This document shows positions 31,412 to 49,042 of a stretch of DNA of 64,000 bases, piece by piece. This DNA is from Propionivibrio soli (GTDB lineage Bacteria > Pseudomonadota > Gammaproteobacteria > Burkholderiales > Rhodocyclaceae). The notes beneath the pieces are model-generated. The model made no database searches, was not told the DNA's origin, and saw nothing but the letters and a program-made list of their open reading frames with translations. Every line of letters begins with the position of its first letter. Position 1 is the first letter of the stretch. The translations under genes were made by a program, and so were the position numbers. The DNA lies in NCBI RefSeq assembly GCF_025770765.1, contig NZ_JANZKY010000007.1, positions 186,001-250,000 of the forward strand. The letters are read 5' to 3'.

Positions 31412-31427
31412 GATCGTTCTGTTTTAC

Positions 31428-31456
31428 TTATCAATGTATCAAATACTTTAAATATA
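31428..31456. promoter_or_regulatory. conserved LysR operator, copy A
   Basis: This AT-rich block, starting 17 bases upstream of LysR copy 1, contains TATCAATGTATCAAATACTT. The equivalent place before LysR copy 2 contains TATCAATATATCAAATAGTT. The match is 18 of 20, inside otherwise dissimilar intergenic DNA. This supports a shared binding site; which regulator binds it is inferred. Confidence 0.6.
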
Positions 31457-31625
31457 CGTAAACAAAAGCGCTTGCTAGGATTTCTTCCGTCGTGATGGAA
31501 GTACGGCGGAGGCCGGCCTAGGGCTGGTGCTGAATAACGAGGCCTCCCGGAAACGTCAGGATCAAAGCTGGGACCGGCCCACGGGACCAGAATAGCTAAC
31601 CTCAAAAGACAGGGCGGAAAAGACC

Positions 31626-32600: not shown

Positions 32601-32633
32601 TCGTTTCTTGTAAAACAGATGTGAAAGCACCCT

Positions 32634-33581: not shown

Positions 33582-33803
33582 GGATACGCTGCGTACCGAT
33601 CGCCAAGGGGGGCGAGGCAAGGGGAGAAAAGGCGCCACCGTGCGGCTTTTCGACCTTTGCCTCCATAATCCGCTCCGCATCGGCGCGCTCTCCAACGCGT
33701 AGTACAGCGCACTGGCCAGCCTATCGATTTCTCTCCTCAGCGGTCTCCGTCTCTCGTTATCGTCTCCATGAAACGCTAGTTTTCGCCGGAACATAGCGAG
33801 CTT

Positions 33804-33846
33804 CGGCCGACGACGGGAACCCCACCCGAACGTCGGCCGTTTTTTT
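33804..33846 (+). terminator. rho-independent terminator after the denD pair
   Basis: CGGCCGACG at 33804-33812 pairs perfectly with CGTCGGCCG at 33831-33839, with further GGG/CCC pairing inside. Seven T's follow (33840-33846). It lies 223 bases past the isomerase stop. The sequence is almost the same as the terminator at 47.79 kb. Confidence 0.8.
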
Positions 33847-33859
33847 GTGTGCCTTTCTC

Positions 33860-34825
33860 TTATTCCGCCTGGTGCTTGGTGCCGGCATGCATAAGATCAA
33901 GAAAGCGTTGCATGACCGTATTGATATGCCGATCGCGCTGAACGAGCGTGCCCCACGACGTCAGCGAATGCGTGAAATCGTAGGGAAGAATGCGCAGCAG
34001 ATTGTGGCGTGCGAAACGATCGGCCATCGAACGCGGGATGACGGCGATCATCCGGCTGTGGGCAATGAGATCAGTGGCCGTGAGAAACGACGAGGTTTCC
34101 ACGGGGCCGGGAGGCACCGCGGCATGGTGGCTGCGGAACTCCTGCTCGATGATCTCGCGCAACGGACTTCCACGCAATTGGAGAACCCAGGGGTAATCGA
34201 GCAATGCGCGAAAATCGAGACGTCGTCGACTTTTTGGGGCAGGGGTCAGTGGATGATCACAGGCGACCACCACGGAGAGTGCCTCTTCGCCGACCGGCGT
34301 GAACACGCAATCCTGGTTGGCCGGACTGGTCGGGTCCGGCATGCGGCCGATGACGACATCAAGCCGCCCGTCGCGCAGCATTTCGATCAGACGGTCACTG
34401 GTATCGACGCTCAACTCGAACGACAACAACGGGTACTCCTGCTTCAGTGCCAACATGGCGGCGCTGAGATAGGTAGGCGCGGCCGCTGTGATGCTGCCGA
34501 CGAGAAGTTTGCCAGAGCTACCGAGCCGCAGTTCATGCAACTCCCGACCCAATGCGGCCATGCTGTTACGCAAGCCGCGAAACGTATTCATCACCGCATG
34601 GCCGGCCGCGTTCAAGACCAGTCCTCGGCCGATGCGATCGAACAGCGGTTCTCCCAGCGCATCCTCGAGTTCATGCAGCATCTTGGTTGCCGCCGGCTGG
34701 CTCATCCCCAAATGCTGTGCCGCCGCGTGCAGGGTGCGGAATTCGTCGACGGCCAGCATCAGCGCCACTTGGCGCATGCGCAGACGATTCAGCAGTTGTT
34801 CGGTGCGAGAGGAATGAGCAGGCAT
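33860..34825 (-). CDS. LysR-family regulator, GbpR-like (copy 2)
   Basis: LysR-type regulator of 321 residues. Its helix-turn-helix (RQVALMLAVDEFRTLHAAA, MSQPAATKMLHELEDALGE) and effector domain (LLSFELSVDTSDRLIEMLRD) closely parallel those of copy 1. It is transcribed divergently from the amidohydrolase and TRAP genes. Its own upstream region carries the same operator word as copy 1. A simple reading is that both regulators arose by duplication and control two adjacent halves of one catabolic locus. A long plus-strand open frame opposite this gene is only its shadow. Confidence 0.9.
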   Translation of the reverse strand: MPAHSSRTEQLLNRLRMRQVALMLAVDEFRTLHAAAQHLGMSQPAATKMLHELEDALGEPLFDRIGRGLVLNAAGHAVMNTFRGLRNSMAALGRELHELRLGSSGKLLVGSITAAAPTYLSAAMLALKQEYPLLSFELSVDTSDRLIEMLRDGRLDVVIGRMPDPTSPANQDCVFTPVGEEALSVVVACDHPLTPAPKSRRRLDFRALLDYPWVLQLRGSPLREIIEQEFRSHHAAVPPGPVETSSFLTATDLIAHSRMIAVIPRSMADRFARHNLLRILPYDFTHSLTSWGTLVQRDRHINTVMQRFLDLMHAGTKHQAE

Positions 34826-34840
34826 ATTGATAACCTCGGG

Positions 34841-34870
34841 ATATCAATATATCAAATAGTTTCAATATTC
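34841..34870. promoter_or_regulatory. conserved LysR operator, copy B
   Basis: Contains TATCAATATATCAAATAGTT starting 17 bases upstream of LysR copy 2 and about 70 bases before the amidohydrolase start. It matches operator copy A at 18 of 20 positions and lies at the same distance from its regulator. Confidence 0.6.
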
Positions 34871-34939
34871 GGGAATCAATCCGGTTGTTACGATTTGCTT
34901 CGCCGCGCGGATCAATTTGCGATAAGGATAATTTCCGCC

Positions 34940-35911
34940 ATGAACGAAGTTTCGCCCGACCTGGCACACGCCCGTGACGAGTTCCTCGCTTCGGGGGACG
35001 ATGCGTTGCTGCCGATCGTCGATGCTCACCACCACTTCTGGGATCTTCGCAATCCGCATCCCTGGCTTACCGAATTGCCGCGGATACCGTTCCGTTACGG
35101 GGACTATGAGGCGATCTGCAAGGATTTCCTGCCTGCCGACTATGCCGCAAACTGTGCTCCTCACCGGGTGCTGCGCCATGTGGTGATGGAAGGGGAGTGG
35201 ACGCCGCAGAATCCGGCCGGAGAGGTCGTCTGGATGAAGTCTTTGGCTACGCGCTGCGGTAAACCGCACGCGATGGCCGCCCAAATCTGGCTCGATCGTG
35301 ATGACGCCGAAGACTTGATGCGGCTCTACGCCTCGGAGCCATTTCGCGGGTTCGTACGCAGCGTCCGCCACAAACCCGCCTGCGCGGCGCGCGAGGACTA
35401 CCGGCCGGATTGGGCGCCGCCCCGGTCGATGCGTTGCCCTCTCTGGCGCCAAGGCTATGCCAGACTGGCGAGCTTCGGACTGATGTTCGAACTCCAGGCC
35501 CCTTGGTGGCATATGGCCGAGGCGGCCGAACTGGCACGCGATTTTCCGGAAACGCCTCTTGTCATCAACCACGCGGGCTTGCCGGGAACGCGAGATGAAG
35601 AGACCTTGCGGCGATGGAGAGAGGCAATGGCCCTCCTGACGTCGTATCCCAATGTGCACGTGAAGATATCCGGCATCGGCGTACGCGGTGAAGCCTGGAC
35701 CCCCGAGCAGCAAGCGCCGGTGGTCGATGCGTTGATCGCCGACTTCGGCGTTGCCCGTTGCCTGTTTGCCAGCAACCATCCAGTCGATGCAATTGTCGTG
35801 AAGCTGGATCGTCTATGGAGCGGGTTCAAGGAACTGACCCGCCAGTTGATTCCCGAACAACGTCTGGCGTTGTTCTGTGATAACGCGGTCGCTCTTTATG
35901 GTCTGCGTTGA
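34940..35911 (+). CDS. amidohydrolase-2 family lactonase/hydrolase
   Basis: Metal-dependent TIM-barrel hydrolase of 323 residues in the COG3618 type that includes fuconolactonases. The first metal motif is VDAHHHFWDLRNPHPWL (28-44). VINHAGLPG and CLFASNHPVDA are the later family motifs (histidine and terminal aspartate). The start at 34940 follows AAGGATAA; longer upstream frames are the LysR shadow. It is the first gene before dctP, 47 bases away. With a DenD-type dehydrogenase nearby, a role in opening a sugar lactone formed by oxidation is attractive, but this is inferred. Confidence 0.83.
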   Translation: MNEVSPDLAHARDEFLASGDDALLPIVDAHHHFWDLRNPHPWLTELPRIPFRYGDYEAICKDFLPADYAANCAPHRVLRHVVMEGEWTPQNPAGEVVWMKSLATRCGKPHAMAAQIWLDRDDAEDLMRLYASEPFRGFVRSVRHKPACAAREDYRPDWAPPRSMRCPLWRQGYARLASFGLMFELQAPWWHMAEAAELARDFPETPLVINHAGLPGTRDEETLRRWREAMALLTSYPNVHVKISGIGVRGEAWTPEQQAPVVDALIADFGVARCLFASNHPVDAIVVKLDRLWSGFKELTRQLIPEQRLALFCDNAVALYGLR

Positions 35912-35958
35912 TTCGATGTGCCGTAGCCCAACCAAGCGAACAAAGTCAGGAGGACTTA

Positions 35959-36975
35959 ATGAAAGCGTTGAAACTACTATCACTGCGCGGTGCGCTCGCC
36001 ATCACCGTCGCTGTACTTTGTCTCGGAACGGCGGCGGCATCCGCTGACGAAATCAAGGCCAAGTTCGGCACGTCGCTGCCGGATAGCCACCCGCAGACGT
36101 TGGGTGCAAGAAAGTTCGCCGAACTCGTCGACAAAAAGAGCAATGGCCGCATCAAGATCACCGTCTACTCCGGCGCGCAGCTAGGCAGCGACCAACAAAT
36201 GCAGGCGGCCTTGCGCGGCGGCACGCAGGAATTCACAGCGCCGTCGACCGCGACGTTGGCCAACCTGGTGAAGGAGTTCGGCGTCTTTGGGCTTCCCTTC
36301 TCGTTCGCTAGCGAGAAGCAGGCGGACGCCGTATTCGACGGACCGTTCGGGCAGAGCATGCTGGCCAAGCTGGCCGACAAGGATCTCGTCGGACTGGCCT
36401 ACTGGGAGAACGGGTTCCGCCACTTCACGAACAGCCGGCGTCCCATCGTCAAGGCCGAAGACCTGGCCGGGCTGAAAGTGCGCACGATGCAGAACACGTT
36501 GTACATCGACCTCTTTTCCGGGTTGGGGTCGAACGCCATTCCGATGCCGGTCAATGAACTGTATTCGGCACTGGAAACGAAGGCGGTCGACGCTCAGGAA
36601 AACCCTTTCACGGTCGTGCAGGCGCAGAAGTTCTTCGACGTGCAGAAGTACCTCTCAACGACGGGGCATGCGTATGACGCTCAAGTGCTGATCGCGTCTA
36701 AGAAGTTCTGGGACAAACTGAGTGCAGCCGACAAGAAACTGATTCAGGAGGCCGCACGCGAAGCCACGCTATACCAACGCCAGACGAGCCGTGAGCTTAA
36801 TGCCAAGGCACGCGAGGAGTTGGCGAAAGCCGGAATGCAGATCAACGACGTGTCCGATGCCGAGCGGCAGCGCATGCGGGAAAAATTGCAGCCCGTGATT
36901 GCCAAACACCAGGCCGCGGTAGGCGAGGAAACAGCCAAGGAATTCTTCGCCGCCATTGCCAAGGCACCGAAGTAA
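35959..36975 (+). CDS. dctP: TRAP transporter binding protein DctP (module 1)
   Basis: Periplasmic binding protein of 338 residues. The signal peptide ends near TAAASADEIK, and TSLPDSHPQTLGARKFAELV is the typical mature start. The conserved carboxylate-binding arginine is in LKVRTMQNTLY, and NELYSALETKAVDAQENP is the DctP family motif. AGGAGGA precedes the ATG. It probably delivers a sugar acid or related carboxylate to the DctQM pair encoded 290 bases later. It is clearly homologous to the binding protein at 41122 but far less similar than the two DctQM pairs are to each other. Confidence 0.92.
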   Translation: MKALKLLSLRGALAITVAVLCLGTAAASADEIKAKFGTSLPDSHPQTLGARKFAELVDKKSNGRIKITVYSGAQLGSDQQMQAALRGGTQEFTAPSTATLANLVKEFGVFGLPFSFASEKQADAVFDGPFGQSMLAKLADKDLVGLAYWENGFRHFTNSRRPIVKAEDLAGLKVRTMQNTLYIDLFSGLGSNAIPMPVNELYSALETKAVDAQENPFTVVQAQKFFDVQKYLSTTGHAYDAQVLIASKKFWDKLSAADKKLIQEAAREATLYQRQTSRELNAKAREELAKAGMQINDVSDAERQRMREKLQPVIAKHQAAVGEETAKEFFAAIAKAPK

Positions 36976-37061
36976 GCCTTGTTGGCCGGCGGGCGGAATC
37001 GCGGCGGCCACGCCGGCCATCGATGCTGTGCAAAAGAACGTTGCGTCTCCGGAGAGGGCAA

Positions 37062-37268
37062 ATGATGAAAAACACATTGATGTGGCGGCTGGCCGCATTT
37101 GATGTTGCTGCCCGAAGCTTGAAGCACGGACGTCGAAACAACATGAATCGGAGGCAAGGGATGGTTGAGCAGGCGGCATCAGCGGGCATGGCCGCGACGG
37201 GCCGAGCGACTAACGGGGAAGGTGGGTACGCGGCGTTTGCGCCGTATTCCGGTGGAGAACGGCGATGA
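37062..37268 (+). CDS. possible small protein translationally coupled to dctQ
   Basis: A frame of 68 residues begins at ATGATG (37062/37065), six to three bases after GGAGAGGG, and ends in TGA inside the dctQ start (ATGA, four-base overlap). The sequence is basic at first (MWRLAAFDVAARSLKHGRRN) and then Ala/Gly-rich. No membrane segment or family is recognisable. The ribosome binding site and overlap are what a real leader gene would show, but a chance frame filling the 290-base dctP-dctQ gap is quite possible. The second TRAP module has no counterpart. Confidence 0.3.
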   Translation: MMKNTLMWRLAAFDVAARSLKHGRRNNMNRRQGMVEQAASAGMAATGRATNGEGGYAAFAPYSGGERR

Positions 37269-37771
37269 AGATTCTCGACAAGCTGGTCAAGGGCGTCGAG
37301 GTCGTGCTCGTTGTCATGTTCGGCATCATGGCCGTCCTGGTGTTCGGTAACGTCGTTCTGCGTTACGGGTTCAACTCGGGGATTGTGTTTTCCGAGGAAG
37401 TTTCCCGCTTCATGTTCATGTGGCTCACGCTGATCGGGGCGCTGATCGTGATGAAGGATCACGGCCACCTCGGTATGAGCAGCGTCGTCGCCCGGTTGGG
37501 CGAACGGGGACAACGCATCTCGCGCTTCCTCGCCGATTCCATGACTTTGGCCTGTTGCCTGCTGTTGGTGCACGGGACGTGGCGCCAGGTGATCATCGGT
37601 CTCGACGATCGGGCTCCCGTGACTGGCATACCCATGGGATATATCCAGCTGTGCCTGCTCATCTCTAGCGTCGGCATGTCACTGGTTCTTGCCTATTCGC
37701 TGTGGCGGCAGATTACCGGACGTATGCCGCGCGAAGAACTCGTCCCCTACAGCGGCAGCGTCGGCGAATGA
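37265..37771 (+). CDS. dctQ: TRAP transporter small membrane subunit DctQ (module 1)
   Basis: Small membrane subunit of 168 residues with four hydrophobic segments. NVVLRYGFNSGIVFSEEVSR and the MWLTLIGALIVMKDHGHLGM segment are the DctQ signature. GGAGA lies upstream of the ATG. The gene ends 19 bases before dctM. About three quarters of its residues are the same as in the DctQ at 45965, and both share the C-terminal SGSVGE. It associates with DctM in the inner membrane. Confidence 0.92.
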   Translation: MKILDKLVKGVEVVLVVMFGIMAVLVFGNVVLRYGFNSGIVFSEEVSRFMFMWLTLIGALIVMKDHGHLGMSSVVARLGERGQRISRFLADSMTLACCLLLVHGTWRQVIIGLDDRAPVTGIPMGYIQLCLLISSVGMSLVLAYSLWRQITGRMPREELVPYSGSVGE

Positions 37772-37790
37772 ACGGGAAGAGGGAACAACA

Positions 37791-39068
37791 ATGACTATCG
37801 CCACCTTCCTCGTCGCGCTGCTCGGTGCCATGGCGCTTGGGGCACCGATCGCTTTTGCGCTGCTCATCTGCGGCGTGGCGCTGATGATCCAGATGGACAA
37901 CTTCGATACGCAGATCATCGCGCAGAATCTGCTCGAAGGCGCCAACAACTATCCGCTGATGGCGGTTCCTTTCTTCATGCTCACCGGCGAGTTGATGAAC
38001 GCCGGCGGCCTCTCGCGGCGCATCGTGGAAGTCGCCGACGCGCTCGTCGGCCACGTACGGGGCGGGCTCGGTTACGTCGCGATCATCACGGCGGCCGTCG
38101 TCGCCAGCATCTCCGGCTCGGCGGTTGCGGACACAGCGGCCGTGGCGGCTTTGCTTATCCCGATGATGCGCAATGCGGGCTACAACGTGCCGCGTTCAGC
38201 GGGGTTGATCGCCTCCGCCGGCTGCATCGCGCCCGTGATTCCGCCTTCGATTCCGTTGGTCGTCTTCGGGGTGACGACGCAGCTGTCGATCACCAAGCTC
38301 TTTATCACGGGGATATTCCCGGGCCTGCTGATGGCGTTGACGCTCGCCGTCACGTGGCGGATCGTGGCCAAAAAAGAGCCGGGCGGAAGCCAGCATGCGT
38401 TCGATTTCGGCCGTGTCCTGGTTTCGCTACGCAACGGAGTGTGGGCGCTCGTGCTGCCGTTCGTCATCATCGGCGGCATGAAAGCCGGCGTTTTTACGCC
38501 GACGGAAGCGGCGGTCGTTGCCGTCTTCTACTCGCTGCTGACCGGGCTTTTCGTCTATCGCGAACTCGACTACCGCAAGGTTCCCGGACTCATGCTGGCT
38601 GCGCTGAAGACGTCAAGCACGATCATGTTCCTGGTGGCTTGTGCGATGGTCTCAGCTTGGTTGATAACGATCGCCAACATTCCGGCGCAAGCGATTGCCA
38701 TACTCGAACCCTTCATGGGCAGCCCGATTCTGCTGATGTTCGTGATCATGGTGTTGATCGTCATTGTCGGCACCGCGCTTGATCTAATGCCGACGGTACT
38801 GATTCTCGGGCCGATCCTCGTTCCGGTCGTCAAGCAGGCGGGAATCGACCCGTACTATTTCGGCGTGATGTTCATGATGAACAATGCGATCGGACTGCTT
38901 ACGCCGCCGGTGGGCACAGTCCTCAATGTTGTTGCCGGTGTCTCGAAAGAAAGTCTTGACAAGGTGATCGGTGGAGTGTGGCCTTTCCTGCTCGCGGAGA
39001 CCGCCTTGATGTTCGTTCTCGTTTTCTTCCCTTCGCTGGTGACGGTTCCGATGAAGTGGTTGATGTAA
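37791..39068 (+). CDS. dctM: TRAP transporter large membrane subunit DctM (module 1)
   Basis: Large permease of 425 residues, the normal size for a separate DctM with about twelve helices. Landmarks are PFFMLTGELMNAGGLSRRIV, SISGSAVADTAAVAALLIPM, PPSIPLVVFGVTTQLSITKL and LLTPPVGTVLNVVAGVSK. By eye roughly 90% of residues are the same as in the DctM at 46491. Both genes have the same length and the same 19-base gap from dctQ. Ion-coupled uptake of the DctP ligand is the expected function. Confidence 0.94.
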   Translation: MTIATFLVALLGAMALGAPIAFALLICGVALMIQMDNFDTQIIAQNLLEGANNYPLMAVPFFMLTGELMNAGGLSRRIVEVADALVGHVRGGLGYVAIITAAVVASISGSAVADTAAVAALLIPMMRNAGYNVPRSAGLIASAGCIAPVIPPSIPLVVFGVTTQLSITKLFITGIFPGLLMALTLAVTWRIVAKKEPGGSQHAFDFGRVLVSLRNGVWALVLPFVIIGGMKAGVFTPTEAAVVAVFYSLLTGLFVYRELDYRKVPGLMLAALKTSSTIMFLVACAMVSAWLITIANIPAQAIAILEPFMGSPILLMFVIMVLIVIVGTALDLMPTVLILGPILVPVVKQAGIDPYYFGVMFMMNNAIGLLTPPVGTVLNVVAGVSKESLDKVIGGVWPFLLAETALMFVLVFFPSLVTVPMKWLM

Positions 39069-39952: not shown

Positions 39953-40897
39953 TCAAGAGTAGAGATCTGCCGCTACCGAGCGGACGTGCCTCAGTACCAA
40001 ATTGGCGCCCTCCGACAGAAGCTGATCACGGGAGGTGATGATACCGAAACGCTCCATTCGGCATGGAATGTCGATCGGCAAGATGGTCAATTCGCCGGTT
40101 TTTACGTAATAGCGCGCCACTTCCTGCGGCATTACGTGCAAGTAGTTCGTCTGTGACAACAAACTCATCGTCACTGACATCGCGGTGGTTTCGACAACGT
40201 TCGACGGCATATCGAGGTCGGCGCGACGAAACAACATGTCAAAGCGGTTGCGCAGAATGCTTCCGCGCGCCGAAAGAATCCATGTGGCATTTGAGAGGTC
40301 TCTCAATGTCAGGTCTTTTCGGCCAGACAGCGGATGCTTCCTGCGGCCAACAACACACACGACTTCCTCACTCATGTCTTCGTAGAGGAGGTTAGGTTCA
40401 TCTTCTTGTTCCAAGATCCGTGCGATCAAGAAGTCGTGACGCTCCTGCTTCAATTTCACGACCAGGTCATTGCTGGTACTTACTTCAACGCCGATACACA
40501 GGTTCGGCGCTTCCTCCTTGGCGCGTGCAATTGCTCTCGGTATCAGGGTCAGGGCAGGGGCCACGATTGCCCCAATGCTGACGTAACCCGAGAGTCCCGA
40601 CTGCAACGTTGCGATCGATTCCTGGCCGTGCGCGAGGTGCGCCAATGCCATGCGAACATGACGAATTAATGTCTCTCCGTAGGCCGTGGGCCGGATACCA
40701 CGTGGAAGGCGTTCGAAGAGCATGACCCCCATCAGGTCTTCGATGTCCTTGAGCATCTTCGAAGCACCGGGCTGGGTCATGTTTGTTTCTGCTGCGGCTT
40801 GATGCATGTTGCGCGTTTCATCGAGTGCGATCAGAAGAAACAAGTGCCTGGTCTTAAGCCTTGTACGCACACGACGTGCGGCATCGTTCTCGTTCAT
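39953..40897 (-). CDS. LysR-family regulator of the transketolase/TRAP module
   Basis: LysR-type regulator of 314 residues. The helix-turn-helix is at about residues 16-75 (RHLFLLIALDETRNMHQAA, MTQPGASKMLKDIE). The effector domain includes GYVSIGAIVAPALTLIP and a distinctive LIARILEQEDEPNLLYEDM. It is divergent from the dctP at 41122 with 224 bases between, the standard arrangement for a regulator of the adjacent operon. It belongs to the same broad subgroup as the two GbpR-like regulators but is clearly more distant, and its upstream region lacks their shared operator. Confidence 0.9.
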   Translation of the reverse strand: MNENDAARRVRTRLKTRHLFLLIALDETRNMHQAAAETNMTQPGASKMLKDIEDLMGVMLFERLPRGIRPTAYGETLIRHVRMALAHLAHGQESIATLQSGLSGYVSIGAIVAPALTLIPRAIARAKEEAPNLCIGVEVSTSNDLVVKLKQERHDFLIARILEQEDEPNLLYEDMSEEVVCVVGRRKHPLSGRKDLTLRDLSNATWILSARGSILRNRFDMLFRRADLDMPSNVVETTAMSVTMSLLSQTNYLHVMPQEVARYYVKTGELTILPIDIPCRMERFGIITSRDQLLSEGANLVLRHVRSVAADLYS

Positions 40898-40953
40898 CCT
40901 CCATTCCCCTCCTGAAAGAATTTCCTTCCGCTCTCGTTTGATGAGCAGAAGAT

Positions 40954-40973
40954 CGATACGAAAAATGGTATCG
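40954..40973. promoter_or_regulatory. candidate operator of the divergent LysR
   Basis: CGATAC and GTATCG form a perfect six-base inverted repeat separated by GAAAAATG. It lies 57 bases upstream of the LysR start and 149 before dctP. The symmetry fits the T-N11-A pattern of LysR sites. Confidence 0.45.
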
Positions 40974-41121
40974 GAAATTACTATTTATTCATTTGTTTTG
41001 TATTTTACGTCTCCTTAATCTTCCTCCCACAAAAACAACGACGGCGTGCAACGCCGCGATTGCGGTTGTTGCCGTACCGGCTTCTTCGCATCACCGACCT
41101 ACTATTCTTGGGAGGCAAGAC

Positions 41122-42147
41122 ATGACTTACGGTTTTCGCACCATCGCTACTCTTGTCGCCGCTGTCGCGGCAATGCTTCAGGCTCCATCGCTTCTTGCGC
41201 AGACTGCTCCCGAACGGAGCCTGCGTCTCGGCATCTGCATCGCCGAGGAACACCCACTCGGGCAAGGCTCGATCAAGTTCTCCCAGATCATGGACAAGTT
41301 GAGTGGGGGCAAGACGAAAGTGAAGCTTTATCCAGCCTGCCAGCTTGGGTCTGAGACGCAGCAAATAGCCGCCGTGCGCGGCGGTGTTCAAGATCTGACG
41401 ATCGTGTCGTCCGCGCCAGTCGCCACCATCATCAAGGAGTTCATGCTGTTCGATCTTCCTTTCCTTTTCCAGACAGAAAAAGAGACCGACACGGTTCTCG
41501 ACGGGAAACTTGGGCAGCACATGCTCGATCTTGCTCAATCGAAAGGAATGATTGGCCTGTGCTACTGGGAAAATGGATTCAGGCAACTGACCAACAGCAA
41601 GCGGCCCGTGGCGACCATGGATGACATGGTGGGACTCAAGGTGCGCGTGATGCAAAACCCGGTCTATCTCGATACGTTCAAGGCGATGGGTGCGAACGCT
41701 ATCCCGATGCCCATGCCTGAGCTCTATTCGGCGCTCGAGACCAAAGCGATGGATGCGCAAGAGAACCCGATCGCGAACATCCACGCCAACAAGATGCACG
41801 AGGTTCAGAAATACCTCAGCCTGACAAACCACGCCTACGCCCCTTATGTCGTGCTCATCAGTAAGGCGTTGTGGGAAAAGATGGACTCCAAGGAGCGCGA
41901 CAACATGCGGACGGGTTGCAATGAGGCCCGGGATTATCAACGCAAGCTGATCCGGACCCTATCCGCAGACCTTCTTCAAGACCTCAAGGCCAAAGGCATG
42001 ACGGTCACCGCCGTATCCGACGCCGAAATGGCCAGGATGCGTGAGCGGACGAAACCGGTTGTCGATAAGTTCATACAGGAAATCGGTAAGGACATCGTTG
42101 CCCAGGCACAGCAGGAAATCGCGGCAGTGCGCAAGAACGGCAACTGA
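41122..42147 (+). CDS. dctP: TRAP transporter binding protein DctP (module 2)
   Basis: Periplasmic binding protein of 341 residues. The signal peptide ends near PSLLAQTAPERS. LKVRVMQNPVYLDTF holds the ligand arginine, and PELYSALETKAMDAQENP is the family motif. GGGAGGCAAG precedes the ATG. It differs from the module 1 protein over most of its length (for example GICIAEEHPLGQGSIKFSQI at the mature start), so a different ligand is likely. Its membrane partners are encoded 3.8 kb downstream, beyond four enzyme genes, which makes this a single enzyme-bracketing operon. Confidence 0.92.
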   Translation: MTYGFRTIATLVAAVAAMLQAPSLLAQTAPERSLRLGICIAEEHPLGQGSIKFSQIMDKLSGGKTKVKLYPACQLGSETQQIAAVRGGVQDLTIVSSAPVATIIKEFMLFDLPFLFQTEKETDTVLDGKLGQHMLDLAQSKGMIGLCYWENGFRQLTNSKRPVATMDDMVGLKVRVMQNPVYLDTFKAMGANAIPMPMPELYSALETKAMDAQENPIANIHANKMHEVQKYLSLTNHAYAPYVVLISKALWEKMDSKERDNMRTGCNEARDYQRKLIRTLSADLLQDLKAKGMTVTAVSDAEMARMRERTKPVVDKFIQEIGKDIVAQAQQEIAAVRKNGN

Positions 42148-42218
42148 TCAATCGAACGGGCAGGGTAATGCTCTGGCTTTACGCCTGCCGGTGCGAAACG
42201 CTTCATTGGGCAAGGAGA

Positions 42219-43256
42219 ATGAATTTGAAAGCGCTCTACTACGTCGGCGAGAAGGCAATGGAACTCAGGGATGTGCCTGAGCCGCCCGCACAGGCCAACA
42301 AGTATCGGGTAAAGGTACGCTCGAACGGTATCTGCGGTTCAGACTTCGAAGGTTATCTGGGCAAGACGGGGCGTCGATTGCCGCCGATGATCATGGGCCA
42401 CGAAGCTTCCGGCGTTATCGATTCTGTTCCCGGCGGCGGCAAGCTTCGTCGAGGGGAGCGAGTCGTCATCTTCCCAAAGCCTTTCTGCGGGGAATGTTTT
42501 TTTTGCAAAAAAGGCATGGTGAACGTCTGCCCCGCCGGCGTCTGCATGGGCGTCATGGATCAAGACGGCAGCATGGCGGAGTTCGTCAATGTCGAAGAGA
42601 AGTACCTGATTCCGTTCGGCCCGACGCTATCGTTCAACGAGGCCGCGATGACCGAACCCCTGGCCGTGGCCTACCGTTCGGTGCAAAAAGTATCGGATAA
42701 CGAGATCGCCGAGTCGTCGTTCTGCATGGTCATTGGTGCCGGCACCATCGGTTTGCTTGTTGTCGCTCTGCTCAAACTCAGAGGTGCGAAGAACATCATC
42801 GTCTCCGATGCAGCCGATTTTCGCCTCGGCGTGGCGAGGAAGATGGGGGCGGATCATACGATCAATCCACGTAATGTGGATTTCCTCGATACGGTCAAGA
42901 CAATCACCCATGGCGCAATGTGCGACTTCGCGATCGAAGCCGTAGGAATAGCCCAGACCGCAAGCAATTCTCTCGATTGCCTTCGTATTGGCGGTACGGT
43001 GATCTGGATCGGGAACGCTCAGAAGATGGTCGAGGTAAATATGCAGAAGATAGTGACCACCGAGCTGACGATCAAAGGTAACTATGTTTATGACTTCCAG
43101 GGTTTTGTCGAAAGCCTGAAGCTTCTGGAGGCGAAAAAAATAGATATCGCGCCTCTCATGACCAACGTCTATCCGCTCAGCGAAGGCGTTCGTGCCTTTA
43201 AGGATCAGGAAGAGAACAAAGAAGGAAAGATGCTGAAAGTCTTCCTTGAGAACTAA
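42219..43256 (+). CDS. zinc-dependent medium-chain dehydrogenase (polyol/sugar dehydrogenase type)
   Basis: MDR-family dehydrogenase of 345 residues. The catalytic zinc ligands C39 (GICGSD), H61 and E62 (GHEASG) are present. So is the structural zinc lobe C90, C93, C96, C104 (PFCGECFFCKKGMVNVC). The NAD-binding motif is GAGTIGLL (173-180). It resembles sorbitol, threonine and galactitol-type dehydrogenases that oxidise a secondary alcohol to a ketone. AAGGAG precedes ATG 42219. Upstream of a split transketolase, its likely job is to create the ketose that transketolase can split; the substrate is inferred. Confidence 0.87.
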   Translation: MNLKALYYVGEKAMELRDVPEPPAQANKYRVKVRSNGICGSDFEGYLGKTGRRLPPMIMGHEASGVIDSVPGGGKLRRGERVVIFPKPFCGECFFCKKGMVNVCPAGVCMGVMDQDGSMAEFVNVEEKYLIPFGPTLSFNEAAMTEPLAVAYRSVQKVSDNEIAESSFCMVIGAGTIGLLVVALLKLRGAKNIIVSDAADFRLGVARKMGADHTINPRNVDFLDTVKTITHGAMCDFAIEAVGIAQTASNSLDCLRIGGTVIWIGNAQKMVEVNMQKIVTTELTIKGNYVYDFQGFVESLKLLEAKKIDIAPLMTNVYPLSEGVRAFKDQEENKEGKMLKVFLEN

Positions 43257-43291
43257 GGGTTCCTCACTTCACATCAACGAAGAGTACGGTA

Positions 43292-43954
43292 ATGAAAAAA
43301 GTCGTTTTACTACAAACTAGCATGGTGTCATTCGATACCTTCAATCGTTTGTTTCGAGAAGTGATACCCGAGGCCGAGGTCTCGAATCTCGTCGACGAAG
43401 ATCTCCTCGACACGTTGAACCGGAACCGGGGAATTACGCCCTCAATCATCCAGCGCATCGCCCAGTATTGTGTCGCTGCCGAGGCCGCGGGCGCTGACGT
43501 GATATTCAGCCAGTGCTCTTCGACTCGTGAAGGCATCGAATGTGCGCGGAAAATGACCCAGATTCCGATCGTGATGGTCGATGACGGCATGGCAGAGAAA
43601 GCCGTCACCATCGGCTCGCGAATCGGCGTTGCAGCTACCGCGGCGGCGACGCTCAAACCGACATCGGCGGCGCTCACGCAGGCGGCGCAGAGAGTGGGCA
43701 AGACGATTTCTGTCAAAACCTATCTGGCTGATGGCGCCTTGGACGTCTTGATGAAGGAAAAGAACCGCGAGAAACACGATCGGCTCGTTCTCGATTATCT
43801 CAGGGCGGCCGAGAAAGAGAATGACGTCATCGTTCTGGCGCAGGGCAGTATGGTCACCTTGGAGCCTTACCTTTCGGAGATGGCGGTTCCTGTGCTGACC
43901 AGTCCGCGCCTCGGCGTCGAGAAGGTACGCGAGATTCTGTTTCCCTGCCGGTGA
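43292..43954 (+). CDS. Asp/Glu racemase superfamily protein with a single active-site cysteine
   Basis: Protein of 220 residues with the Asp/Glu/hydantoin racemase fold pattern. The first catalytic cysteine is C75 in IFSQCSSTREG. Where racemases carry the second cysteine (after a VIVLxC-type strand) this protein reads VIVLAQGSMVTLEP, with no cysteine. Loss of one of the two thiols is known in arylmalonate decarboxylase-like and some isomerase members, so a racemase role is doubtful. It sits 35 bases after the dehydrogenase and 49 before the transketolase, clearly inside the operon. Its function is unknown to me. Confidence 0.75.
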   Translation: MKKVVLLQTSMVSFDTFNRLFREVIPEAEVSNLVDEDLLDTLNRNRGITPSIIQRIAQYCVAAEAAGADVIFSQCSSTREGIECARKMTQIPIVMVDDGMAEKAVTIGSRIGVAATAAATLKPTSAALTQAAQRVGKTISVKTYLADGALDVLMKEKNREKHDRLVLDYLRAAEKENDVIVLAQGSMVTLEPYLSEMAVPVLTSPRLGVEKVREILFPCR

Positions 43955-44003
43955 TGCACGCCCGAGCGCGGGCATCGGTTTGTACACAAGCGAGAATGAC
44001 TGA

Positions 44004-44849
44004 ATGGACGACCAAAAAATCAGGCACCTGCAGGCTACGGCTCAACAGCTTCGCCGCAACGTACTGGAAATGATCGGGATCGGAAAAGCCGGGCATTGGG
44101 GGGGCTCCAGCTCACTCGCGGAAACCATGGCGGTGCTCTATTTTCATGCCATGAGGGTAGATGCGCGTGAGCCATGCAACCCGGCGCGTGACAGGTTGGT
44201 TCTCTCGAAGGGGCATGCTGTGCTGATCCAGTACGCTGCGCTGTGCGAGCTGGGGTATTTCCCTCGTGAAGAGTTGAAGCGGGTAAAGAGCCTGGATGGC
44301 TTGCTCCAAGGGCACCCTGACCTGACGATCCCAGGCATCGAGGCGGTCACCGGGTCTCTTGGCCAGGGGCTCTCGATTGGCGTTGGCATGGCGTTGGCGC
44401 TTCGTCTTGAAAAGCGCCCGGCGCACGTCTTCGTGATCATGGGCGATGGAGAGCAATCAGAGGGCCAACTTTGGGAGGCAGCCATGGCTGCCAGCAACTT
44501 CGAGGTGGATAACCTTACGGCTTTCATCGATCTGAACCGGATTCAAGCAACCGGGCACACGGATGAAGTCTTCCGTATTCCCGATCTGGTGCAGAAATGG
44601 AACTCGTTTGGCTGGGAAGTGCTTAACGCGCGCGGGCACGACGTTACCAGCATTGCGGAGAACATCGACAAGGCAAGGTCCATCAAGGGCAAGCCAGCTC
44701 TGATAATCCTCGAGACGATCAAAGGGAAGGGGGTGTCGTTCGCCGAAAATACAGCGACATATCACAACGGGGTCTTTGACGATGCTCGATTCGCGCAAGC
44801 GATGCACGAAATCGCTCTGGCCACTGACATGAGAGAAGAGGTGGCGTGA
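44004..44849 (+). CDS. transketolase, N-terminal (thiamine-binding) subunit
   Basis: First half of a split transketolase, 281 residues. The catalytic histidines appear as H31 (AGHWGG), H71 (SKGHA) and H104 (LQGHPD). The thiamine diphosphate/magnesium motif runs from GDGE (147-150) to N178 in FIDLNRIQ. The C-terminal half is encoded by the next gene, which it overlaps by one base. Split transketolases of this kind usually serve dedicated catabolic routes rather than the pentose phosphate pathway, for instance apulose 4-phosphate or sulfofructose cleavage. No kinase accompanies it here. Confidence 0.92.
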   Translation: MDDQKIRHLQATAQQLRRNVLEMIGIGKAGHWGGSSSLAETMAVLYFHAMRVDAREPCNPARDRLVLSKGHAVLIQYAALCELGYFPREELKRVKSLDGLLQGHPDLTIPGIEAVTGSLGQGLSIGVGMALALRLEKRPAHVFVIMGDGEQSEGQLWEAAMAASNFEVDNLTAFIDLNRIQATGHTDEVFRIPDLVQKWNSFGWEVLNARGHDVTSIAENIDKARSIKGKPALIILETIKGKGVSFAENTATYHNGVFDDARFAQAMHEIALATDMREEVA

Positions 44850-45799
44850 TGGAGACAAAAAGCCTGCGGCTAGCGTATGGCGAGGCGCTCGTCGAAGAAG
44901 GACGAGCCAACACGGATATCGTCGTGCTCGAAGCTGACCTTGGCAAGTCGACAATGTCCTGTCTCTTCAAGGATGCCTATCCGGAACGCTATTTCGAGAT
45001 GGGCATTGCGGAGCAGAACATGGCATCGACGGCGGCCGGCATGGCGCTCGCCGGGAAAGTGCCCTTTTACAGCACCTTTGCTGTATTCGCGGCGGGGCGT
45101 GCCTACGACCAGATCCGTTGTGCCATCGCAATACCAGAGGCAAACGTGCGCATCTGCGGTTCAAGCTGCGGCCTTTCGGATTTTGGGGATGGCAAGACAC
45201 ACCAGTCGGTCGAAGATGCAAATATCATGTGTTCGATTCCCAACATGACCGTCCTTAATCCTTGCGATGCCGTTGAAACGCGCAAGATGGTTCGCGCGAT
45301 GTTGTCGCACAAAGGCCCGGTGTATATCCGGATCAACAGAAACGAACTTCCGGTTTACACGGCTGCGGATACCGACTATGAGATTGGTCGCATGTACCGA
45401 ATCCGTAAAGGATCGGATGTGGTGATCTTTGCCACCGGCTCCATGGTTTGGAAATCGATGCTCGCTGCGGACCTTCTCGAGGCCGCAGGAATTTCGGCCG
45501 AGGTGGTGAACGTGAGTTCGTTGAAGCCGCTCAGGAAGGAAGAAATCCTCAAATACACGCTCGGGAAGAAAGCGATTGTCACTGCTGAAGAGGCAAATCG
45601 CATCGGAGGTCTCGGCTGCGCGATTGCTGGCCTGATCATCGGCGAGGTTCACCTGCCTTTCGCCCAGGTAGCGATTGATGACCAATTCGGCACTTCGGCG
45701 TATGGCTACGATGAATTGCTTGAGCGTTACGGCTTGACGGAGCGACACATTGCTGAAGCGGCTTGCGGGGCGATAGCCAAACGGGCCATACGCCACTAG
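44849..45799 (+). CDS. transketolase, C-terminal (pyrimidine-binding) subunit
   Basis: Second half of the split transketolase, 316 residues. E55 in MGIAEQNMAS is the glutamate that activates the cofactor by contact with N1' of the pyrimidine. The C-terminal part is the transketolase C domain (IVTAEEANRIGGLGCAIA). ATG 44849 overlaps the preceding stop (TGATG), so the two subunits are made together and should form an alpha2beta2 enzyme transferring a two-carbon ketol unit. The acceptor and donor cannot be told from sequence. Confidence 0.92.
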   Translation: METKSLRLAYGEALVEEGRANTDIVVLEADLGKSTMSCLFKDAYPERYFEMGIAEQNMASTAAGMALAGKVPFYSTFAVFAAGRAYDQIRCAIAIPEANVRICGSSCGLSDFGDGKTHQSVEDANIMCSIPNMTVLNPCDAVETRKMVRAMLSHKGPVYIRINRNELPVYTAADTDYEIGRMYRIRKGSDVVIFATGSMVWKSMLAADLLEAAGISAEVVNVSSLKPLRKEEILKYTLGKKAIVTAEEANRIGGLGCAIAGLIIGEVHLPFAQVAIDDQFGTSAYGYDELLERYGLTERHIAEAACGAIAKRAIRH

Positions 45800-45964
45800 A
45801 AGATCAGCATTTTGGACAATCGGAGCAAAGGCGGAGGAACTCGATAACGCTCACGGGAGCGATGCCGGGAAAAGGACTTTGCGTCTTCAGGATTGCAGGG
45901 CGGTCTCGGTCGATTTGGCGGTTTTCAATCGAAACACGGTCAGTACTCATAAAAGGAGCGTCAC

Positions 45965-46471
45965 ATGGGAGCGTTGAACCGTCTGATCCATTTCGTGGAA
46001 TGGATCTTGGTGGGGATGTTTGGGGTGATGGCGATACTGGTGTTTGGGAACGTGGTGTTGCGGTACGGATTCAACTCCGGGATTGTGTTTTCGGAGGAAG
46101 TGGCGCGTTTCATGTTCATGTGGCTGACGTTGATCGGAGCACTGATGGTCATGAAGGATCATGGCCACCTGGGCATGAGCAGCGTGGTGAGCCACTTTGG
46201 CGAGGCCGGGCAACGGATATGCCGGTTCCTGGCGGACCTGATGACCCTGATCTGCTGCCTTCTGCTGGCACACGGCACCTGGAAGCAGATGATCATCGGC
46301 ATGGACGACCACGCCCCGGTGACCGGCATTCCGATGGGGATCGTTCAGTCCGCCCTGTTGATTTCCAGTGTCGGCATGTCGTTTGTCCTCGGATACGGCC
46401 TGTGGCGTCTTGTGACCCGGCGCATGAAGGCCGACGAACTTGTCCCCTTTAGCGGCAGCGTCGGCGAATAG
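45965..46471 (+). CDS. dctQ: TRAP transporter small membrane subunit DctQ (module 2)
   Basis: Small membrane subunit of 168 residues, exactly the length of the DctQ at 37265 and about three quarters identical to it. GNVVLRYGFNSGIVFSEEVA is unchanged and the C-terminus is again SGSVGE. AAAGGAG lies before the ATG. It is 165 bases after the transketolase, with no terminator between, and 19 bases before dctM. Its binding protein is the one at 41122. Confidence 0.92.
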   Translation: MGALNRLIHFVEWILVGMFGVMAILVFGNVVLRYGFNSGIVFSEEVARFMFMWLTLIGALMVMKDHGHLGMSSVVSHFGEAGQRICRFLADLMTLICCLLLAHGTWKQMIIGMDDHAPVTGIPMGIVQSALLISSVGMSFVLGYGLWRLVTRRMKADELVPFSGSVGE

Positions 46472-46490
46472 GTCAGCGGAAGGAATAGAA

Positions 46491-47768
46491 ATGACCATTG
46501 CCACCTTCCTCTTTTCATTGCTCGGAGCCATGGCGCTCGGAGCGCCCATCGCCTTCTCGCTTCTCATCTGCGGCGTTGCGCTGATGCTCCAGATGAACAA
46601 CTTCGATACCCAGATCATTGCCCAGAACCTGCTCGAAGGAGCCAACAACTACCCGTTGATGGCGGTTCCCTTCTTCATGCTTACGGGCGAACTGATGAAC
46701 GCGGGGGGGCTATCAAGGCGGATTGTCGAAGTGGCCGACGCTCTCGTTGGACATGTCCGGGGTGGGTTGGGCTACGTCGCGATCATTACGGCGGCCGTGG
46801 TCGCTAGCATCTCGGGTTCTGCCGTCGCGGATACCGCGGCTGTGGCCGCACTCCTTATCCCGATGATGCGCAACGCAGGGTACAACGTCCCACGGTCGGC
46901 TGGCCTGATCGCCTCGGCCGGTTGCATCGCCCCCGTCGTTCCGCCGTCGATCCCGCTCGTTGTCTTCGGAGTAACCACCCAACTTTCGATCACTAAGCTG
47001 TTCATGGCCGGCATCTTTCCCGGAATCCTGATGGCGCTGACTCTCTCCACCACCTGGTGGCTCGTCGCCAAGAAAGAACCGGGAGGCCGACAGCACGCCT
47101 TCGATCTTCGCCGTTTTCTTACGGCGTTGCGCAATGGCGTCTGGGCGCTGGTACTGCCCTTCGTTATCATCGGCGGCATGAAAGCCGGCGTATTCACCCC
47201 GACGGAGGCGGCCGTCGTCGCCGTTTTCTACTCACTGTTTACCGGCCTGTTTGTGTATCGCGAACTGGACTACCGCCAAGTGCCGAGCCTTATGCTCGCT
47301 GCGCTCAAGACCTCGAGCACCATCATGTTCCTGGTTGCCTGCGCGATGGTTTCCGCCTGGCTGATTACGATTGCCGACATTCCGGCACAGACCGTGGCCC
47401 TGCTCAAACCGTTCATGGACAGCCCGATCGTGCTGATGCTCGTGATCACGGTCCTGGTCATCATCGTCGGCACGGCGCTGGATCTGATGCCGACGGTGCT
47501 TATTCTGGGCCCTATACTGGTGCCGGTGGTCAAGCAGGCAGGGATTGATCCGTACTACTTTGGCGTCTTGTTCATCATGAACAATGCCATTGGCTTGCTC
47601 ACCCCGCCTGTGGGTACGGTACTCAACGTTGTCGCGGGAGTATCGAAAGAATCGCTCGACAAGGTGATCACGGGGGTTTGGCCCTTCCTGCTTGCTGAAA
47701 CCGTCCTCATGTTCATCCTCGTGCTCTTCCCCGCACTCGTTACCGTTCCCATGAAGTGGCTGATGTAA
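46491..47768 (+). CDS. dctM: TRAP transporter large membrane subunit DctM (module 2)
   Basis: Large permease of 425 residues. It is the same length as the module 1 DctM with about 40 differences by eye, most of them conservative and concentrated in the central loop (WWLVAKKEPGGRQHAFDLRR) and helix 9-10 region. GSAVADTAAVAALLIPMMRN and LLTPPVGTVLNVVAGVSK are unchanged. DNA-level synonymous differences are plentiful, so the duplication is not very recent. It ends the operon; a terminator follows 25 bases later. Confidence 0.94.
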   Translation: MTIATFLFSLLGAMALGAPIAFSLLICGVALMLQMNNFDTQIIAQNLLEGANNYPLMAVPFFMLTGELMNAGGLSRRIVEVADALVGHVRGGLGYVAIITAAVVASISGSAVADTAAVAALLIPMMRNAGYNVPRSAGLIASAGCIAPVVPPSIPLVVFGVTTQLSITKLFMAGIFPGILMALTLSTTWWLVAKKEPGGRQHAFDLRRFLTALRNGVWALVLPFVIIGGMKAGVFTPTEAAVVAVFYSLFTGLFVYRELDYRQVPSLMLAALKTSSTIMFLVACAMVSAWLITIADIPAQTVALLKPFMDSPIVLMLVITVLVIIVGTALDLMPTVLILGPILVPVVKQAGIDPYYFGVLFIMNNAIGLLTPPVGTVLNVVAGVSKESLDKVITGVWPFLLAETVLMFILVLFPALVTVPMKWLM

Positions 47769-47793
47769 CGCCGTAGCGCGCGTAATTAGACTT

Positions 47794-47836
47794 CGGCCGA
47801 CGACGGGAAACCCCATCCGGATGTCGGCCGTTTTTT
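47794..47836 (+). terminator. rho-independent terminator after TRAP module 2
   Basis: CGGCCGACG (47794-47802) faces GTCGGCCG (47823-47830), followed by six T's. The whole element, including the flanking CTTCGGCCGACGACGGGAA, is nearly the same as the terminator at 33804-33846. Confidence 0.82.
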
Positions 47837-47875: not shown

Positions 47876-48928
47876 TCAGCGGTACGAGCCGCTGTACATC
47901 TCTACCTTGGCGGCGTTTGCGCGCGTAACGTATCCCGGCCCGGAATCGATGTGGCGTTTGCCGAAGGAGCGCAACTCGATGTCGTAGTCGGACATCCGCT
48001 TGTGCAGCTTCATGTTGGTGTATAGGGCGAGCTTGTTGATCGAGAGATCAAGGTTCTTGTTGCGCAGGGTGATGGCCATCATCGCTACAGAGAGGTAGCC
48101 CTGAAGGTAGGGCTGCTGGTCGATTGCAAAGGCTATTTGTCCCGCTTTCACTGCGCTCGTGATGGCGTTCGAAAGATCGAAAGTCACGATGTATGGCTTT
48201 TTCTCGAGCTTGACGCTCTTCAACGCGGCGAGCGTCGCATGTGCCGGCTGCGGGCCGAGGGCGAGCAGCGCGTCCGCGGAGTTGCCGTGGGTACTAAGGT
48301 AAGCCGAGATTGCCGCCTCGATGCCCTTGTCGTCGGTCGGTAGCGTCAGTTCGTTCGCCTTCGATAGTCCCAGTCCCTTGGCAAAACCCTGGCAGCGCTC
48401 ATGCGAGGCCGGGTTGTTGGAATAGTGGTTGAGGCACACGAACGACTTCACACCCTCCTGAGCGGCCCTTTGTCCCGCAAGAACACCAGCCTCGAATTCA
48501 GGCTGGCCGATATGCAGCAGGGCGCCGACCGACTCGCTCTGTTCGTACGTGCCGGAGTTGTAGGTGATGAGCGGAATCTTGTATTTCTGCGTGACGCGCG
48601 TCAGCGGGTCCTTGAGTACCTTGTAGTCACCGATCGTCGAGATGATGCCGTCCGGTTTCGATTCGGCCGCGGCGTCGATGATCTTTGCCATTTCCTCGAT
48701 GCTGCCGTCCTTTGGATTGCGGAACTCGACGCGGACACCGTAGTCCTCCGCCGCCTGTTTGATCGAGTTGCGGATCGTGTTCCACCACGAGTCGGCGTCG
48801 GGTGCGTGGGAGATGAAGACGATCCGCTCCTCGGATAGCGCCATACCGTGCGGCAAGGCCAGGAAAACGGCCAGGATCGGTACGGCGCAAATGCGAGCCA
48901 AGTCTAGGCGCGATACTGCATTGAACAT
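47876..48928 (-). CDS. orphan sugar ABC binding protein (RbsB/periplasmic LacI-like)
   Basis: Periplasmic binding protein of 350 residues in the ribose/galactose-binding fold (Peripla_BP_4 type). ATG 48928 is chosen because GGAGGGG precedes it, and it gives the signal peptide ICAVPILAVFLALPHGMALS. ERIVFISHAPDADSWWNTI and AESKPDGIISTIGD are typical. No permease or ATPase gene is near, so it must either serve a transporter elsewhere or act with a chemoreceptor or sensor kinase. It is divergent from putA and converges with TRAP module 2. Confidence 0.87.
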   Translation of the reverse strand: MFNAVSRLDLARICAVPILAVFLALPHGMALSEERIVFISHAPDADSWWNTIRNSIKQAAEDYGVRVEFRNPKDGSIEEMAKIIDAAAESKPDGIISTIGDYKVLKDPLTRVTQKYKIPLITYNSGTYEQSESVGALLHIGQPEFEAGVLAGQRAAQEGVKSFVCLNHYSNNPASHERCQGFAKGLGLSKANELTLPTDDKGIEAAISAYLSTHGNSADALLALGPQPAHATLAALKSVKLEKKPYIVTFDLSNAITSAVKAGQIAFAIDQQPYLQGYLSVAMMAITLRNKNLDLSINKLALYTNMKLHKRMSDYDIELRSFGKRHIDSGPGYVTRANAAKVEMYSGSYR

Positions 48929-49042
48929 GTTGTTCCCCTCCATTGTTATCAGCGAAAAAGCGGTGGGCGCCCGGCGCAAGTAGGCCGTTTCTTGTTTTAT
49001 GTGCCAAGACGCATGACGTTTGGCAGATTGATGCTCCCTCGG

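Follow-up and report, generated by a model that had tools for sequence, protein, structure and literature searches.

The sulfoglycolytic transketolase (TK) pathway uses the split TK SqwGH, the TK acting on apulose 4-phosphate is AptAB, and in the gcl-hyi-glxR operon a hydroxypyruvate isomerase and a tartronate semialdehyde (TSA) reductase handle TSA, of which glyoxylate carboligase is the usual source. Cleavage of ketoaldonates has been attributed to TKs in two further settings. An E. coli TK carrying R358I/H461S/R520Q (TKTA_M) was engineered to convert 5-ketogluconate to tartaric semialdehyde (PMC12016104), and a natural TK has been proposed to cleave 5-ketogluconate during tartaric acid synthesis in grapevine, a step that is called enigmatic by its own source (PMC12016104, PMC7970118). 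This report concerns an operon of Propionivibrio soli, located at positions 41122 to 47768 of a 64,000-nucleotide stretch of DNA (contig NZ_JANZKY010000007.1, positions 186,001 to 250,000; assembly GCF_025770765.1), the whole of which is hereafter called the window. The operon encodes a tripartite ATP-independent periplasmic (TRAP) transporter, a zinc dehydrogenase (MDR), a protein with the Asp/Glu racemase fold (RAC) and a split TK. We read it tentatively, with a confidence that falls only slightly short of probable, as a LysR-controlled sugar-acid operon in which a pentonate is imported and oxidized to 4-ketopentonate, which TK then splits to give TSA, on which RAC would act.

Like SqwGH, the window TK would be a catabolic split enzyme working outside the pentose phosphate pathway, its aldehyde product being then reduced or oxidized; in sulfoglycolysis, however, an isomerase makes the sulfofructose, whereas the window operon encodes a zinc dehydrogenase but lacks an isomerase gene, and its relatives carry a TSA reductase. 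AptAB is likewise a split TK of a sugar-specific operon but acts on the product of a kinase, for which the window operon holds no gene. Unlike in gcl-hyi-glxR, the source of TSA would be TK rather than glyoxylate carboligase, and RAC stands in place of Hyi, both in the window and at locus L035 of another genome of the genus. With TKTA_M, which cleaves a ketoaldonate (PMC12016104), the window TK shares the replacement of His461 by Ser; TKTA_M is nevertheless a laboratory variant acting on a C6 acid, while the window TK retains R358 and R520 in a context that suggests a C5 acid. The grapevine proposal differs in that it concerns plant biosynthesis from a C6 acid with no operon, yet because of it a natural TK that cleaves ketoaldonates is not an entirely new idea. 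A literature search whose scope excluded most subscription papers found no bacterial catabolic TK pathway for sugar acids of this kind; it returned the grapevine proposal and the engineered E. coli enzyme.

In the proposed route, of which we infer the substrate, the product, the direction and the RAC reaction, the TRAP transporter would import an aldonic acid, most likely a pentonate, and MDR would oxidize its penultimate hydroxyl group (C4) to yield 4-ketopentonate. The split TK would take this compound as ketol donor and break the bond adjoining the carbonyl, transferring the two-carbon fragment to, for example, an aldose phosphate from the pentose phosphate pathway and releasing 2-hydroxy-3-oxopropanoate, i.e., TSA. 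If established TK chemistry applies here, 4-ketopentonate minus a two-carbon ketol unit is TSA, while a C4 keto acid would leave glyoxylate and a C6 keto acid tartaric semialdehyde. TSA could then be converted to D-glycerate by TSA reductase and phosphorylated by glycerate kinase, both of which are encoded elsewhere in the 4.76-Mb genome of the window (three TSA reductases and a PF02595 glycerate kinase). RAC might racemize TSA or interconvert it with hydroxypyruvate, which is the task of hydroxypyruvate isomerase in paralogous TRAP-MDR-TK operons. From the known stereochemistry of TK, a D-threo 4-ketopentonate would give the TSA enantiomer that reduces to L-glycerate, while glycerate kinases of this kind use D-glycerate, hence a reason for a racemase or isomerase. 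Family scans of the window operon found neither a ketose kinase nor an isomerase of the kind that supplies a ketose to TK, and no DUF1537 kinase or decarboxylating aldolase (the OtnIKC set) is present among its eight genes; the absence of a kinase and of an aldose-ketose isomerase is expected, because direct cleavage of a keto acid needs neither. The preliminary description of this DNA had proposed uptake, oxidation to a ketose and ketol transfer by TK, a scheme that is supported in its general form. It had also considered a TK operon devoid of a kinase as odd: the kinase is indeed absent from the operon, but this is less strange than it seemed, as direct keto-acid cleavage requires none and, of the 21 split-TK loci of the genus, 8 have an MDR gene nearby.

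Gene content, conservation, active-site residues and co-location, all of which are directly established, carry this proposal. By comparison with E. coli TktA, the N-terminal subunit retains H26, H66, H100, G114, D155, N185, and H261, and the C-terminal subunit R358, S385, E411, D469, H473, and R520, so that the thiamine diphosphate and substrate residues of a TK (H26, H66, H100, H261, E411, H473) are present; the best solved relative of the C-terminal subunit, 6yaj, is itself a split TK. The enzyme departs from a canonical sugar-phosphate TK by the Ser found at position 461, with R358, S385, and R520 kept. In TK, His461 binds the phosphate of the substrate (PMC3657141). Position 461 is Ser in all six orthologous TKs and Tyr in seven paralogues, five of which have an MDR gene nearby, the paralogous TKs being approximately 41 to 47% identical. 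His461 is missing from the eight MDR-associated TKs of the genus, whereas among the other 13 it is missing from five and kept in eight (Fisher 0.007, kinship not corrected for). The H461S substitution alone was found earlier to raise the activity of TK on glycolaldehyde, and the authors of that work described replacing networked residues by amino acids that do not occur naturally at the position concerned (PMC3657141); the window TK carries Ser461 naturally. Three loci were excluded from the 21-locus counts, namely L090 and two alphaproteobacterial loci combining TRAP, TK and short-chain dehydrogenase/reductase (SDR) genes (L091 and L092), the TKs of which carry Tyr, Ser and Leu at positions 26, 100 and 461, respectively. 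Locus L090, from a Subdoligranulum plasmid record, also bears a Cas9-like open reading frame recognized by eye (L090:3023-6277, minus strand; 1084 aa) about 1 kb from its split TK.

The nature of the TK product is suggested by neighboring genes, which were counted with curated family cut-offs in eight genomes containing 21 split-TK loci and 24 TSA reductase genes over cut-off. A TSA reductase gene directly follows the gene for the C-terminal TK subunit in five of the six orthologous loci (L035, L051, L109, L110, L111). At L035, it lies between this gene and dctQ and passes both TSA reductase models (488.8 vs. 397 and 412.3 vs. 340.75 bits), as do the corresponding genes of the other four loci. 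Overall, a TSA reductase gene is found within 10 kb of 11 of the 21 split-TK loci, against 0.3 expected under random placement, although related loci count more than once and are not independent owing to shared descent. Homologues of TRAP, MDR and glycerate kinase genes occur together at the paralogous TK loci L053, L054, L120, L121, and L123, all of which except L123 add homologues of TSA reductase and hydroxypyruvate isomerase; the copies of L121 exceed the cut-offs for hydroxypyruvate isomerase (363.1 vs. 353.45), TSA reductase (494.5 vs. 397), and glycerate kinase (492.6 vs. 168.45). Because TSA reductase, accompanied in paralogous loci by glycerate kinase and hydroxypyruvate isomerase, adjoins TK, the compound released by TK is most likely TSA or something closely related to it. 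Glyoxylate carboligase as the source of TSA is disfavored, being over cut-off in only two of the eight genomes. In the genome of the window, two of the three TSA reductases adjoin what we take to be glucarate/galactarate-type genes, and the third (L064) presumably adjoins dihydroxyacetone-kinase-type genes and a TRAP transporter. Three genomes encode a protein of 344 to 345 residues in the vicinity of TSA reductase or TK modules (L064:7774-8808, L111:8665-9699, and L131:5163-6200, all on the minus strand); its L064 copy has no Pfam or NCBIfam match at the thresholds used, and its L111 copy no NCBIfam match.

As to the compound imported, the nearest solved chains to the window DctP are 7bbr (E 3.1e-85), which we take to be CxaP of Advenella, and, equally close, 4p47 (E 3.8e-85). 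CxaP, a TRAP binding protein for sugar acids, binds D-xylonate, D-fuconate, D-galactonate, and D-gluconate (PMC12076931). The earlier suggestion that a polyol or a sugar acid is taken up thus leans to the sugar acid: a polyol is not favored, because one of the nearest binding proteins binds sugar acids and the permeases resemble those of the neighboring acid-sugar cluster. DctP was dropped as a discriminator between C4 and C5 acids, as the DctPs of the window, of L035, of the tetronate operon L114 and of the erythronate cluster have the same two nearest chains. Regarding C5 acids, acetic acid bacteria are known to produce 4-keto-D-arabonate and 4-keto-D-ribonate (PMC9171043). The TK module of genome G865 (L131) lies in an island with homologues of L-ribulose-5-phosphate 3-epimerase (407.5 vs. 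200) and L-ribulose-5-phosphate 4-epimerase (367.7 vs. 257), UlaG (642.6 vs. 306), and an FGGY-type kinase under its family cut-offs; by sequence likeness, a comparable island is present in G857, where the stretch seen contains no UlaG gene. MDR itself matches 24 NCBIfam models but reaches the cut-off of none; with the L-idonate 5-dehydrogenase (IdnD) equivalog (163 bits for a cut-off of 469), the likeness is one of resemblance only.

RAC belongs to the Asp/Glu racemase superfamily both by profile (PF01177, 53.6 bits vs. a cut-off of 31) and by fold (model pLDDT 90.6; Foldseek E 5.3e-9 and TM-score up to 0.80 to the Asp/Glu racemase 5ell). It shares the first catalytic cysteine of this superfamily, but the position of the second reads AQGSM (Q184-G185-S186), which separates it from the two-cysteine amino-acid racemases. 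It had been described as a single-cysteine protein, which holds for the catalytic positions and not for the protein as a whole: RAC has four cysteines, and when the window protein is aligned with eight relatives, C75 (SQCSS) is the only one of them that never varies. Among its relatives, two Clostridia records combine a GntP permease, RAC, TSA reductase, a DUF1537-family kinase and an FBA-type class II aldolase (L040:2479-8105 and L042:2027-7245, the former also having a cupin). The reductase of L042 is over the cut-off of one TSA reductase model (411.9 vs. 397) and narrowly under that of the other (338.1 vs. 340.75), and the kinase and aldolase of L040 are under equivalog cut-offs; such a cluster would fit the conversion of 5-ketohexonate 6-phosphate to dihydroxyacetone phosphate and TSA. 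A RAC paralogue is encoded beside 3-oxo-tetronate kinase and 3-oxo-tetronate 4-phosphate decarboxylase in L085 (L085:7107-13089, minus strand), where no isomerase gene was recognized in the stretch listed, which makes it a candidate for replacing OtnI. RAC relatives are also encoded next to a beta-keto acid cleavage enzyme, recognized by Pfam (BKACE) in L030 and from sequence likeness at L087 and L085. The common denominator of these contexts may be a 2-hydroxy-3-oxo acid, the C2 hydrogen of which would be acidic enough for a one-cysteine enzyme. In TK operons, RAC occurs without a hydroxypyruvate isomerase homologue in the window and L035, and the converse is seen in L053, L054, L120, and L121; six loci are too few to claim mutual exclusion. 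A 75% identical RAC gene found in a Clostridia metagenome bin (L038:10001-10657), with, by likeness, a LacI regulator and a Gfo/Idh-type oxidoreductase as neighbors, reflects either a recent transfer or a binning error.

The acid-sugar module is real, and its genes make a good case that its TK may act on a ketoaldonate. The fuller claim, of a natural catabolic ketoaldonate TK converting 4-ketopentonate and an aldose phosphate to TSA and a ketose phosphate, together with RAC as a TSA racemase or isomerase and non-homologous counterpart of hydroxypyruvate isomerase, is possible but doubtful. Several observations weigh against the pentonate-to-TSA reading. The window is the sole exception among the six orthologous loci in having no TSA reductase in its operon, no TSA reductase was seen at 10 of the 21 split-TK loci (some stretches or contigs being short), and the TKs of L116 and L118 keep His461 in spite of an accompanying TSA reductase, so that the link between the residue and TSA is not strict. 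RAC is near only two of the six orthologous TK loci, and in G856 and G397 it accompanies LysR and MDR genes away from TK. Relatives of RAC without a nearby TSA reductase homologue are found in L077 and L080 to L084 and, by eye, in L038, and the loci where RAC stands by itself or is accompanied by a cupin and an aldo-keto reductase (L077, L080 to L083; L038) are unexplained by a role in TSA metabolism. Finally, a simple replacement of hydroxypyruvate isomerase by RAC is weakened because a gene resembling hydroxypyruvate isomerase lies no more than about 6 kb from each of the distant RAC relatives L031 and L032.

The substrate could instead be a C4 acid of the threonate or erythronate type, which MDR would oxidize to 3-oxotetronate and from which TK would transfer the ketol unit and release glyoxylate; RAC would then racemize 3-oxotetronate at C2, and the TSA-reductase-like enzyme would act on glyoxylate or serve other routes. 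A C4 acid is possible because the window DctP is 65% identical to that of the tetronate operon L114, which encodes L-threonate dehydrogenase and 3-oxo-tetronate kinase over cut-offs, and because close MDR relatives (72 to 78%) occur in other acid-sugar contexts, adjoining tetrulose-phosphate and IlvD-MhpEF genes. The D-erythronate cluster in which the neighboring TRAP cassette sits and the tetronate genes beside the RAC paralogue of L085 point the same way. Conversely, the TSA reductase adjacency at five of six orthologous loci and the glycerate kinase and hydroxypyruvate isomerase homologues of paralogous loci argue for a C3 product, and glyoxylate carboligase is not over cut-off in six of the eight genomes. 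We therefore rate the C4 version as rather unlikely and give the C5 substrate about twice its weight. The same preference for a C3 product, drawn from TSA reductase and glycerate kinase, makes distinctly improbable a hexonate version, in which 5-ketohexonate would yield tartaric semialdehyde, reduced in turn to a tetronate consumed by the adjoining D-erythronate cluster, even though CxaP is reported to bind C6 acids too and precedents are offered by TKTA_M and by the grapevine proposal.

That an ordinary TK of the pentose phosphate pathway was simply caught in a transport operon, with no keto-acid chemistry, is improbable: its catalytic residues and R358, S385, and R520 are kept, as such a reading would have it, but His461 is lost from every MDR-associated TK while eight other split TKs of the genus retain it, and the link of split TKs with TSA reductase is non-random. 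A further alternative concerns RAC only and is compatible with any substrate: RAC may epimerize the keto acid at the carbon beside the ketone before TK cleavage. This carbon is acidic as well, the RAC gene lies directly between those of MDR and TK, and the MDR-RAC pair exists without TK (L078, L079); the paralogous operons, however, carry hydroxypyruvate isomerase homologues rather than epimerases, and L040 and L042 have RAC and TSA reductase without MDR or TK, which leaves this role doubtful, if a real possibility.

Open reading frames and protein families bear out the gene order described initially, LysR, dctP, zinc MDR, racemase-like gene, the two TK genes, dctQ and dctM, and support a self-contained catabolic unit; all eight genes and their listed starts were recovered by a codon-usage gene finder, trained partly on these same genes. 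The LysR-type regulator is encoded upstream on the minus strand (39953 to 40897; PF03466, PF00126) and is 83% identical to that of L035. The divergent intergenic region (40898 to 41121) is by position the presumed promoter/operator, and a consensus scan found no sigma-70 consensus site in it. On the plus strand follow the genes for the sugar-acid type TRAP solute-binding protein DctP (41122 to 42147; PF03480, 297 bits), MDR (42219 to 43256; PF08240 and PF00107, both zinc motifs being visible in the sequence), RAC (43292 to 43954), and the N-terminal (44004 to 44849; PF00456) and C-terminal (44849 to 45799; PF02779, PF02780) subunits of TK, which overlap by one base. The 165-bp gap that separates TK from dctQ (45800 to 45964) corresponds to the place of the TSA reductase gene of L035, and no remnant of such a gene was found in it. 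The small permease DctQ (45965 to 46471; PF04290) and the large permease DctM (46491 to 47768; PF06808; 517.6 bits against the YiaN model, under its cut-off of 800) complete the unit. A probable intrinsic terminator, consisting of a hairpin followed by T6, is visible at 47794 to 47836 on the plus strand. It had been called strong, which is plausible but not proved: the 77-nt stretch around the hairpin folds at -27.2 kcal/mol, but 29 of 200 shuffled versions reach an equal or lower energy, and the hairpin is not among the hits of the consensus scan.

Among the sequences searched, this exact combination of genes is rare, whereas its parts are not. A survey of recurrence, which the preliminary description had called for, found the full LysR-DctP-MDR-RAC-TK-DctQM set in the window and in one other genome of the genus (L035/L076) among the loci searched. 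Across 28 genomes of the genus, with presence defined as at least 70% identity, RAC is present in five, the C-terminal TK subunit in six and MDR in six; TK and MDR co-occur in five genomes, TK and RAC in four and MDR and RAC in four (hypergeometric 0.0004, 0.003, and 0.003, values that are indicative since the genomes are related and partly incomplete). In both G856 and G397 the genes fall into two separate groups, LysR-MDR-RAC (L078, L079) and TK-TSA reductase-SDR (L110, L051), while G857 has TRAP-MDR-TK-TSA reductase-SDR (L111). A gene over the cut-off for D-erythrulose-4-phosphate isomerase (242.8 vs. 240; L079:10452-10910, minus strand) adjoins the LysR-MDR-RAC unit of G397. A scan for RAC matched its pattern in 79 stretches and confirmed nine loci, with relatives 51 to 85% identical. 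In the wider order, a RAC relative was detected at E <= 1e-15 in 26 of 300 genomes, at no more than 37% identity among the matches listed, the protein itself aside; of five such places examined (L030 to L034), one has a distant MDR relative and none a TK match. The C-terminal TK subunit was detected in 4 of 199 genomes of the family at E <= 1e-60 and, at E <= 1e-65, in 1 of 369 genomes of the class, namely its own. Plasmid records gave no match to this subunit or to RAC at 60% identity or more.

Upstream of the operon, the window carries a second TRAP cassette (35959 to 39068), the DctM and DctQ of which are respectively 91 and 76% identical to the permeases of the operon. This cassette belongs to an acid-sugar cluster (30455 to 39068) that also comprises a LysR regulator, a D-erythronate dehydrogenase, which is its first enzyme and passes the corresponding cut-off (470.9 vs. 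325), a TIM-barrel protein under all cut-offs seen, a second LysR and a possible amidohydrolase frame. On the other side, a sugar-binding-protein-like gene (47876 to 48943, minus strand) is closest to a rhizopine-binding model (205 bits for a cut-off of 420). In the region of the L114 tetronate operon, an MDR gene 76% identical to that of the window adjoins (L114:9529-14288, minus strand) genes for dihydroxy-acid dehydratase, 4-hydroxy-2-oxovalerate aldolase, and acetylating acetaldehyde dehydrogenase, all three over cut-offs.

If the proposed route is true, sugar acids would be linked to the pentose phosphate pathway without a dehydratase, a kinase or a decarboxylation, and the window TK would be a natural bacterial counterpart of the engineered enzyme used for making tartaric semialdehyde. 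A function would thereby be offered for the genes annotated as "transketolase family" and "aspartate/glutamate racemase family" in sugar-acid operons, and the racemase subfamily with one catalytic cysteine would gain a function that can be tested.

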